This document shows, in pieces, positions 23,915-38,597 of a stretch of 64,000 nt of DNA. Origin of the DNA: Sphingomonas abietis (GTDB taxonomy: Bacteria > Pseudomonadota > Alphaproteobacteria > Sphingomonadales > Sphingomonadaceae); assembly GCF_027625475.1 (NCBI RefSeq), contig NZ_CP115174.1, positions 2,639,001-2,703,000 of the forward strand, written 5' to 3'. The translations under genes were made by a program, and so were the position numbers. The notes beneath the pieces are model-generated. The model searched no databases and had not been told where the DNA came from. It saw nothing but the letters and a program-made list of their open reading frames with translations. How positions within the stretch are numbered: position 1 is the first letter of the stretch; each line of letters opens with the position of its first letter.

Positions 23915-23989
23915 TGGTGGGCGTGGCAAGGATTGAACTTGCGGCCACTGCGATGTCAACACAGTGCTCTACCACTGAGCTACACGCCC
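23915..23989 (-). tRNA. tRNA-Val (anticodon GAC)
   Basis: 75 bases including an encoded CCA. Cloverleaf: acceptor GGGCGTG/CACGCCC, D-stem GCTC/GAGC, anticodon stem CTGTG/CGCAG with loop TTGACAT (anticodon GAC), T-stem GCAAG/CTTGC with loop TTCAATC. The gene lies between a histidine kinase and cpdR and has its own terminator. Confidence 0.96.
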
Positions 23990-24559: not shown

Positions 24560-25432
24560 ATGGCCACGCATCTGCCGGAACCGAGCGCTTATGCCAGGTT
24601 GGGACAGGTCGCCGCACGCTCGCCGCTGGTCATCGCGGTGCCCCATGCCGGGCACCATTATCCCAAGACGATGCTCGCCGCGTCGCGCCTGCCGCCGGCG
24701 GCGCTGGAGACGATCGAGGATCGCCATGCCGACCTGCTGGTGAGCGATGCAGTGCAGGCCGGCGCGATCGCGATCGTCGCCCGCTATGCCCGCGCCTATG
24801 TCGACCTCAACCGGGACGAGCGCGAACTCGATCCGGCGCTGCTCGGCCGCCGCCCGCCGCCAGGCCTGCTGATCCATTCGGCGAAGGTGGCGGGCGGGCT
24901 GGGCGTGATCCCGAGCCGGATCGCCGCCGGTGGCGCGGTCTGGGCGCGGCCGCTCGGCGAGCAGGAGATCGAGACGCGGCTGGCGACCGCCTACCGGCCC
25001 TATCATGCCGCCATCGAAGCCGCGCTGGATGCCGCTTATGCCGCCCATGGCATCGCGATCCTGCTCGATTGCCATTCGATGCCGCCGCTGCCGTCTTCGC
25101 CGCACCACGGCATCGCGCCGCGCGTGGTGGTGGGAGACCGGCACGGCCGCTCCTCCGATTCGCGCTTCGTCGTGGCGATCATGGAGCGTGTGAAGCGGGC
25201 TGGATTCGCGGTGGCGCGCAACCATCCCTATGCGGGTGGCCACAGCCTCGATCGGCACGGCGCGCGCGCCGTCGGCCGGCACGCCATCCAGATCGAGGTC
25301 GATCGCAGCCTCTATCTGGACCAGGCCCAGCGCGATCCGGGCGACGGCCTGGCCGATACCCGCCGCCTGGTCGCCGCCATCGCCGCCGCACTGGAGGCGG
25401 AGTCCCGCAGCTATCCCCTTGCGGCGGAATAG
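24560..25432 (+). CDS. N-formylglutamate amidohydrolase
   Basis: A 290-residue soluble hydrolase that releases formate and glutamate from N-formylglutamate, the last step of one histidine-degradation route, or acts on related N-formyl amides. Motifs: IAVPHAGHHYP (metal-binding His) near 25, YVDLNRDERELDP near 95, LLDCHSMP near 170, and NHPYAGGH near 225. A hutH/hutU cluster is not present nearby, so its role may be more general. Divergent from cpdR by 131 bases. Start ATG 24560 has no strong SD; confidence in family is high. Confidence 0.9.
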   Translation: MATHLPEPSAYARLGQVAARSPLVIAVPHAGHHYPKTMLAASRLPPAALETIEDRHADLLVSDAVQAGAIAIVARYARAYVDLNRDERELDPALLGRRPPPGLLIHSAKVAGGLGVIPSRIAAGGAVWARPLGEQEIETRLATAYRPYHAAIEAALDAAYAAHGIAILLDCHSMPPLPSSPHHGIAPRVVVGDRHGRSSDSRFVVAIMERVKRAGFAVARNHPYAGGHSLDRHGARAVGRHAIQIEVDRSLYLDQAQRDPGDGLADTRRLVAAIAAALEAESRSYPLAAE

Positions 25433-25446
25433 GTTTTTCCGGCCAT

Positions 25447-25549
25447 AAAAAAACCGCCCCGCGTTTTCACGCGGAGCGGCCAAGGTTCAGGGAGGGATGC
25501 GCCCGGAGGCGCATCGTGCGCGACCACGAAGGGGGGGACATGACCGCGC
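25447..25549 (-). ncRNA. Candidate three-hairpin small RNA with C-rich loops
   Basis: The minus strand holds, in order: a promoter-like TTGAAT (25583-25578), a 16-base spacer and TATTTG (25561-25556); an 11-bp hairpin (25549-25539 with 25528-25518, two or three G-U pairs) with loop UCCCCCCCUU; a second perfect 8-bp hairpin GAUGCGCC-UCCG-GGCGCAUC (25515-25496); a single-stranded CCUCCCUGAACC; and a 10-bp hairpin (25479-25454) followed by seven Ts. The predicted start point coincides with the base of hairpin 1. No ORF fits. C-rich loops are typical of sRNAs that pair with Shine-Dalgarno regions. No family was recognised. Confidence 0.65.
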
Positions 25550-25583
25550 CCAACCCAAATAGGCCGGTGAGAATCTTATTCAA
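25550..25583 (-). promoter_or_regulatory. Predicted promoter of the candidate small RNA
   Basis: -35 TTGAAT and -10 TATTTG separated by 16 bases on the minus strand, with the expected start seven bases downstream of the -10, at the first paired base of hairpin 1. The region upstream (25600-25640) is AT-rich with runs of T. Confidence 0.45.
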
Positions 25584-25843
25584 GCGCCGCAGTGCAAAAA
25601 AATCACGCTTTTCAAAAAAAAATCCGGCTTCGGCCAAATATTCTTGACTTATCCCGACCACGCCCTCCGCGATGTCCGATCGAGAACCCCGTCGCGATCC
25701 GGCAAGCGATGCTTCAGCGCAGCGGCGATGGCGAGGATGGGGACCGCGATCGCCCAGTGCGGCGTCACCGCACCCCGGTCGCGCCGGGTGCGCCGGCTTC
25801 GATCCCGGCGGTGGCCGGTGCGGTCCCCTCGCCTCTGCCGATA
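25584..25843. other. Non-coding spacer between sRNA promoter and SapC gene
   Basis: 260 bases without a supported gene. It holds a small GGCCGAAGCC hairpin followed on the minus strand by nine Ts (about 25609-25636), which could end the SapC operon transcript. A plus-strand TTGACT at about 25646 has no clear partner gene. Confidence 0.45.
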
Positions 25844-26620
25844 TCAGCCGAGCAACGGCCCGTTGGGCGGCGGCAGCTTGCCCTGAATGCTCTGCCGACC
25901 GAAGATATCGGCCATCCGCTGCAAGGAGAAGAGGTGGGCGTAGATCAGCGGCATCAGGCCGTTCTGGAGCCACTTGCGGGCGACGTCGCCACGCAGATTC
26001 TTCACCGCATCCTCGGAGATGATCTGGAATCCGCGATAGATATAAGGCTGCGGCGCGCCGTTCGGCTGGGCGGTGAACTCACCGTCGGTCAGCAGCTTCT
26101 GCTCGCGAATGTCCTGGAAGAAGGCGTTGGTCAGCACGCTGGCTTGCTCGACCTGCTCGCAGAATTGCAGGATCGCGGTGGTCCGCTCGCTGGGCGCGCC
26201 ATCGGTGAAGATCGCCTCGCCGTCCTCGAACGGGCCGATCGCCCCCGACGTCGGATCGAAGCATAGCGACAGATCGTCGCTGTCCGGGCGCAGACGCGCG
26301 AGCAGGAACGGGTAGCGGCGCACATAAGCAGGCACGTACCAATCGTCCGGGAACATGCCGCGCTCGTCGACGATGACGTTGACGCCTTCGTTCAGGCCCA
26401 TCAGCGCGAGCGGCACGGGCGTATCGCCCAACGAGAAGACGATCGGATAGAAACGGCTCGCCTGGATGAACTCCTCGGCGAGAAGCGGCACCGCATGGGC
26501 GGTCTTGAGGAACTGCGCGCCTTCGATCGGACGGAATTTCCAGTCGCCATGCTCCTGGCTCGAGATCGGCGTCAGATCGTTGTAGAACAGCGGCAGGCCC
26601 TGCTGGGGTGCGCTCGCCAT
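25844..26620 (-). CDS. SapC-family protein
   Basis: A 258-residue protein of the SapC family, named after a surface-array-associated gene of Campylobacter; in alphaproteobacteria it is a cytoplasmic or peripheral protein of unknown role. The family features are visible: YNDLTPISSQEHGDWKF near the N-terminus, FYPIVFSLGDTPVPLALMGL near 55-75, and DWYVPAYVRRYPF near 95. The start ATG 26620 has AGGAG 9 bases upstream; a longer open frame upstream overlaps the FAD oxidase gene out of phase and is not real. It is 62 bases downstream of the FAD oxidase gene and likely co-transcribed. Confidence 0.86.
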   Translation of the reverse strand: MASAPQQGLPLFYNDLTPISSQEHGDWKFRPIEGAQFLKTAHAVPLLAEEFIQASRFYPIVFSLGDTPVPLALMGLNEGVNVIVDERGMFPDDWYVPAYVRRYPFLLARLRPDSDDLSLCFDPTSGAIGPFEDGEAIFTDGAPSERTTAILQFCEQVEQASVLTNAFFQDIREQKLLTDGEFTAQPNGAPQPYIYRGFQIISEDAVKNLRGDVARKWLQNGLMPLIYAHLFSLQRMADIFGRQSIQGKLPPPNGPLLG

Positions 26621-38522: not shown

Positions 38523-38597
38523 TCCTCGGTAGCTCAGCGGTAGAGCTCTCGACTGTTAATCGAGCGGCCGTAGGTTCGAATCCTACCCGGGGAGCCA
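38523..38597 (+). tRNA. tRNA-Asn (anticodon GTT)
   Basis: 75 bases with encoded CCA. Acceptor TCCTCGG/CCGGGGA, D-stem GCTC/GAGC, anticodon stem CTCGA/TCGAG with loop CTGTTAA (GTT), T-stem GTAGG/CCTAC. Lies between nadK and the peroxiredoxin gene. Confidence 0.97.

Follow-up and report, generated by a model that had tools for sequence, protein, structure and literature searches.

A three-hairpin small RNA beside the N-formylglutamate amidohydrolase gene of Sphingomonas abietis, probably a sphingomonad variant of the alpha-R8 family

The window analysed here is a stretch of 64,000 nucleotides from the chromosome of Sphingomonas abietis (contig NZ_CP115174.1, positions 2,639,001 to 2,703,000). 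Within it, a gene for an N-formylglutamate amidohydrolase (FGase; PF05013, 222 bits, E 1e-65) and the sapC gene face each other by their 3' ends, and the space between them holds a small RNA (sRNA) candidate on the minus strand, the 3' end of which lies 14 bases from the FGase stop codon. The original prediction had described, at 25447-25583, a minus-strand unit made of the promoter-like TTGAAT-N16-TATTTG, an 11-bp hairpin, an 8-bp hairpin with a UCCG loop, a single-stranded CCUCCCUGAACC and a 10-bp hairpin followed by seven Us. Every one of these elements was located where it had been placed, the 16-base spacing of the two hexamers included (Table 1), and the only correction concerns the last hairpin, the stem of which counts 13 pairs when those reaching into the T-run are included. 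Two tRNA genes are also present in the window, at 23918-23989 on the minus strand and at 38523-38594 on the plus strand, and 11 of the relatives scanned have a tRNA within the 3-kb locus that holds the sRNA.

Table 1. Features of the sRNA locus and of its surroundings (positions in the window)
Feature	Position	Strand	Basis or remark
-35-like hexamer TTGAAT	25578..25583	-	Located by sequence; CTTGA position-locked in relatives; absent from consensus scan
-10-like hexamer TATTTG, 16 bases past the -35	25556..25561	-	TAnnnT position-locked in relatives
Hairpin 1, 11 pairs, C-rich loop UCCCCCCCUU (loop 25529-25538)	25518..25549	-	Folding; covariation
Hairpin 2, 8 pairs, loop UCCG	25496..25515	-	Folding; covariation
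Single-stranded putative seed CCUCCCUGAACC with the alpha-R8 core CCUCCCU	25484..25495	-	Folding; conservation
Hairpin 3 and T7, Rho-independent terminator	25447..25481 (T7 25447-25453)	-	Terminator scan; covariation
Rfam suhB/mmgR match below threshold (31.8 bits against 41)	25439..25519	-	
Convergent FGase gene (N-formylglutamate amidohydrolase, PF05013), synteny anchor of alpha-R8	24560..25432	+	
Weak terminator-like site separating the sRNA promoter from sapC	25622..25639	-	7 pairs, 3 of them G-C
sapC, next upstream same-strand gene	25844..26578	-	Context, outside the sRNA; start codon assigned in this analysis

The folding of this unit is far more stable than its composition would suggest. 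The 106-nucleotide strand 25545-25440 reaches -52 kcal/mol against -37.8 in shuffled sequences (z -4.26), and none of 200 shuffles was as stable. This strand begins inside hairpin 1, and its minimum-energy fold keeps hairpins 2 and 3 and exchanges hairpin 1 for other pairings, one of which extends to bases beyond the T-run. A strand that opens before hairpin 1 and stops in the T-run forms the three hairpins together. In an alignment of 95 loci, unconstrained folding of the 5' portion recovered hairpins 1 and 2 for almost every row, as judged by eye.

This alignment combines 94 loci of the family Sphingomonadaceae with one locus, L023, from another family of the same order. A covariance model, R1, was built from eight same-genus sequences including that of the window; those of the family loci that were retrieved with it represent mostly one locus per genus, taken among the matches listed. 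A check of compensatory changes in the three stems had been proposed together with the prediction, and such changes are abundant: double changes affect 12 of 12 pairs in hairpin 1, 8 of 8 in hairpin 2 and 9 of 13 in hairpin 3, that is 29 of the 33 pairs, and 95.7% of the cells are paired. Covariation scored 0.714, where shuffles reached 0.223 and slid controls no more than 0.112. These values are read with the reservation that fitting the alignment to the model favours the structure, and that related sequences can exceed shuffles in any case. The unfitted alignment of the eight sequences gave the same picture on a smaller scale, with 98.1% paired and 7 double-change pairs against 2.4 in shuffles.

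The promoter is weak by consensus, and a consensus scan at its cut-off detected none before the sRNA. It was retained nevertheless, because the relatives keep its motifs at fixed distances. Among 94 relatives, CTTGA gave 67 matches at -38 to -32 before hairpin 1 and TAnnnT gave 58 at -15 to -11 (matches being counted rather than sequences), over a background of 0 to 4 matches at each other position. The transcript would start near 25550. At the other end, the stretch 25380-25900 has two terminator-like sites, against an average of 0.7 in shuffles, and the terminator of the sRNA is one of them. The weak hairpin at 25622-25639 on the minus strand, with eight T after it, separates sapC from the sRNA promoter and bears indirectly on read-through from sapC, one of the refuting conditions set with the original prediction.

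A locus flanked by facing gene 3' ends, with no promoter at the cut-off of the consensus scan, could also be read as an untranslated element or terminator of the neighbouring genes devoid of any independent RNA. We hold this to be very improbable: the U-run is restricted to the minus strand, the promoter motifs are locked in position among relatives, the covariation extends to three stems rather than to the terminator alone, and a separate, weak terminator-like site is found upstream. As far as sequence can tell, covariation, promoter position and terminator together argue strongly for a stand-alone sRNA of three hairpins.

This sRNA is widespread among sphingomonads. BLASTN returned matches in 19 of 40 genomes, two of the loci (L028 and L029) being unlike the window sRNA by eye and a third (L025) lacking the FGase gene. 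With R1, at E <=0.01, 171 of the 199 family genomes searched, which are an even sample of a larger group, gave a match and 28 gave none; the matches cover 87 of 96 genera. At the level of the class, R1 matched 14 of 142 genomes, two of which belong to the family itself. The exact 18-mer CCTCCCTGAACCTTGGCC is present in 76 of the 95 aligned loci and in at least 120 stretches of contigs from named genomes. The 80 titles among the matches listed are nearly all those of sphingomonad relatives, Sphingomonas, Novosphingobium, Sphingobium and Erythrobacter among them; a few metagenome bins have broader labels, and one is labelled Actinobacteria.

The gene neighbourhood provides an indication of the identity of this RNA. 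A convergent FGase gene lies downstream of the sRNA in 91 of the 95 loci, where the aligned FGase stretch ends at a median distance of 48 bases (maximum 433); the four others are L039, L083, L085 and L106, and L085 stops at a contig end. The alpha-R8 family, which includes MmgR and SisA and corresponds to suhB (RF00519) in Rfam, has been described as carrying a copy adjacent to FGase in most species (PMC12559287). The same arrangement was observed beside Rfam suhB loci, with a convergent FGase gene at 24 of the 30 loci taken at class level and at 14 of the 30 taken at order level, these being the best-scoring 30 of 81 and 30 of 57 matching genomes respectively, one locus per genome. In 8 of those 38 loci the FGase gene lies more than 400 bases away, and the 16 order-level loci devoid of it include four CCUCUCC-type copies from the window's own family.

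The covariance models point in the same direction. No sRNA in the window passes the Rfam gathering level, and the best Rfam match of the window sRNA, at 31.8 bits against a gathering threshold of 41, is suhB/mmgR. Outside the family, 10 of the 12 class-level R1 matches overlap RF00519 matches, and L023, in which FGase occupies the same place, bridges the two models with 54.3 bits for RF00519 and 36.7 for R1. Among other candidates tried, BjrC1505 (RF02356) reached 24.5 bits for a gathering threshold of 50, the ar7, SorY and Burkholderia families gave scores far below their thresholds, and in two publications consulted for Zymomonas Zms4 and Zms6 as described homologues, neither FGase, suhB nor the core motif occurs.

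It could be argued that sphingomonads possess a separate sRNA family beside FGase whose likeness to alpha-R8 reflects convergence on a CCUCCC seed. Indeed, the RF00519 threshold is reached in none of 57 family loci (that of the window, 16 and 40 others), and the S. abietis genome contains five canonical suhB-type loci (L001-L005) with a CCUCUCC core; three of them exceed the Rfam threshold, the other two score about 37 bits, and none has an FGase gene within its 3-kb locus. This explanation appears improbable in view of the gene position and orientation, which match those of alpha-R8 loci across the class, and of the reciprocal model matches and the bridging locus. A further sRNA-like unit was noticed in the same genome (L007, 1501-1572 minus, equivalent to G000:C1:949557-949632 minus); it has a hairpin with a loop of seven C, followed by CCCGAACCUCGGCC, a terminator hairpin and nine T, and scores 26 bits with RF00519 and with R1. 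Since this genome holds both the CCUCUCC loci and the C7-loop unit, the window sRNA has several siblings in it, and the cores differ between them.

The C-rich character of hairpin 1 calls for another comparison. C-rich loops are typical of ar14 and cuckoo RNAs. The window sRNA has such a loop together with a C-rich linker, and in one relative (L021) a sub-threshold ar14 match of 32.8 bits exceeds that for suhB (28.3). We consider it extremely unlikely that the window sRNA belongs to this ar14, cuckoo or CcsR type of alphaproteobacterial sRNA: in the window, ar14 (RF02344) scores 16 bits against a gathering threshold of 58.8, far below the 31.8 bits of suhB, and the immediate neighbours on the two sides examined are FGase and SapC, whereas CcsR loci have been described with a short DUF1127 gene as neighbour (PMC10253847).

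On the basis of the FGase adjacency, the CCUCCCU core and the reciprocal model matches, the window sRNA is identified with alpha-R8/MmgR/suhB, and we conclude that it is orthologous to the FGase-linked member of that family. It very probably represents the sphingomonad variant of a trans-acting sRNA with its own promoter and terminator, for which Hfq-assisted pairing to mRNA leaders is the predicted mode of action. These three observations also speak against the part of the original prediction that presented the RNA as a novel candidate matched to no known family; rather than a categorically new family, it is a variant of a known one that lies under the Rfam threshold. Literature searches found no publication tying alpha-R8 to the Sphingomonadales by name, a search that the Greek letter or its spelling may defeat, and, among titles and abstract openings on sphingomonad sRNAs, Hfq or RNA-seq, none on the window sRNA. 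The alpha-R8 phylogeny (Lagares 2016) may already list sphingomonad copies.

Possible targets were sought with the motif CAGGGAGG N3-10 ATG, which places the perfect complement of CCUCCCUG in ribosome-binding position. It occurs at 16 sites in the S. abietis genome against 2 for the reversed pattern, and at 84 sites against 12 in six relatives of the genus. With frames below 60 amino acids dropped, 78 entries remained, some of them counted twice where loci overlap. The clusters recurring most often comprise glnK (PII), in 6 of the 7 genus genomes, and a sulfate-binding-type protein, in 5 of 7; of the remaining clusters, six are found in two genomes and 53 in one genome only. The motif AAGGGAGG, a single control with fewer sites than the target motif (57 sites, 47 entries), gave three clusters in two genomes, all from the pair G002/G009, and none above two.

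The recurrence of glnK was followed across the family in the best 30 of 43 genomes with a match, out of 44 searched, S. abietis included. Of these 30, 6 retain the exact 8-mer at the glnK start and 10 a 7-mer, and outside the genus the site drifts among G-rich forms. By eye, the glnK ribosome-binding sites are G-rich (GGGAGG or runs like AGGGGG) in most of these 30 genomes (L462-L491). For the sulfate-binding protein, found at the cut-off in 14 of 44 genomes, the exact 8-mer precedes 2 of 14 starts, several of which are uncertain as the matches stop short of residue 1.

Predicted pairing between sRNA and leaders was compared at 26 of the 30 glnK loci, the four others being without an sRNA locus; seven were paired with the sRNA of a congeneric species, and the start of at least one locus (L483) is out of register. 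A first comparison, strong on its face, gave a mean of -15.0 for glnK leaders and of -8.7 for 182 other frames (p 2e-10), but some of these frames are probably no genes. Against controls more likely to be genes, picked by a Shine-Dalgarno-like string, glnK averaged -14.7 against -11.5 for 13 next genes (p 0.013, uncorrected) and against -12.2 for 22 FGase starts from the 91 loci with FGase (p 0.025, uncorrected). Because these fairer controls leave a modest advantage, and because the site had been singled out by the genus screen before the pairing tests, glnK is not claimed as a target; glnK and the sulfate-binding protein are tentatively proposed as candidates.

A mode of action can be proposed from these elements. 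The sigma-70-type promoter and the dedicated terminator would produce an RNA of about 105 nucleotides folded into three stem-loops, and the single-stranded CUCCCUGAACC would pair with G-rich ribosome-binding sites and block translation, most likely with the assistance of Hfq, by homology with the SisA RNA of Caulobacter. For SisA, experiments have demonstrated mRNA repression through pairing of the core at leaders with Hfq (PMC12559287). The earlier suggestion that the C-rich segments mask Shine-Dalgarno sites fits this published behaviour of the family, as well as that of the Sphingopyxis SuhB (PMC6563040). By analogy with these two RNAs, the probable role of the window sRNA would be to hold down genes of nutrient uptake and assimilation under nutrient plenty. 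The loop of hairpin 1 is C-rich far more often in sphingomonads than in other alpha-R8 loci, and it would most likely serve as a further contact site of a similar kind. A bolder scheme, which we judge unlikely, would make the FGase-linked sphingomonad alpha-R8 a two-seed regulator, with the linker CUCCCUGAACC and the C-rich hairpin-1 loop each masking G-rich ribosome-binding sites, and with glnK(-amtB) as a conserved target whose site shifts among genera between GGGAGG, the linker complement, and AGGGGG, the loop complement, thereby linking nitrogen control to the adjoining glutamate-yielding enzyme.

Sphingomonads are important degraders. The only alpha-R8-type sRNA of these bacteria that our literature searches brought up is the Sphingopyxis SuhB. 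As none of the 57 family loci passes the Rfam threshold, routine annotation likely skips the FGase-linked form, for which the present recognition supplies a covariance model. It also makes it possible to ask whether alpha-R8 steers carbon and nitrogen use in sphingomonads as the SisA RNA of Caulobacter does in carbon starvation, and the C-rich loop may illustrate how an additional contact site arises in a conserved sRNA.

Among known systems, SuhB of Sphingopyxis granuli TFA bears the same Rfam family name, belongs to a sphingomonad host and acts by repression at a 5' leader, that of thnR, with Hfq (PMC6563040). As described there, it measures 61 nucleotides, which is too short for the three hairpins of the window sRNA, and our guess is that it may correspond to the FGase-less CCUCUCC copies (L001-L005). 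The sm8/MmgR RNA of Sinorhizobium meliloti, of about 76-80 nucleotides, is also shorter (PMC2573895). A C-run of at least four is found in the hairpin-1 loop region at 77 of the 95 aligned loci, 94 of them from the family, and one of at least three at all 95, whereas in other alpha-R8 loci a run of four or more was seen in 9 of 56, for a scanned upstream stretch of 36 bases, 7 of the 9 being from the same order. In 46 of the 56 non-family loci a 5' hairpin-like fold stands ahead of the part modelled by Rfam, under a lenient rule that gave 33.6 in mononucleotide shuffles, with a mean energy of -15.2 against -8.6 kcal/mol in shuffles, so that a 5' hairpin as such is probably older.

The closest counterpart remains alpha-R8 itself, as known from MmgR of S. 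meliloti, SisA-D of C. crescentus and RF00519. Both have FGase as neighbour, convergent wherever it is present in the loci examined, a hairpin preceding the single-stranded CCUCCCU core, and a Rho-independent terminator starting with GGCC. The published family is characterized by the single-stranded 10-mer UUUCCUCCCU following a weak hairpin (PMC12559287); the window sRNA has AUCCCUCCCU, identical at 8 of 10 positions and with CCUCCCU unpaired, but its U-stretch is relaxed, the conserved stretch extends in the 3' direction to CUCCCUGAACCUUGGCC, and the hairpin before the core is a strong one of eight perfect pairs.
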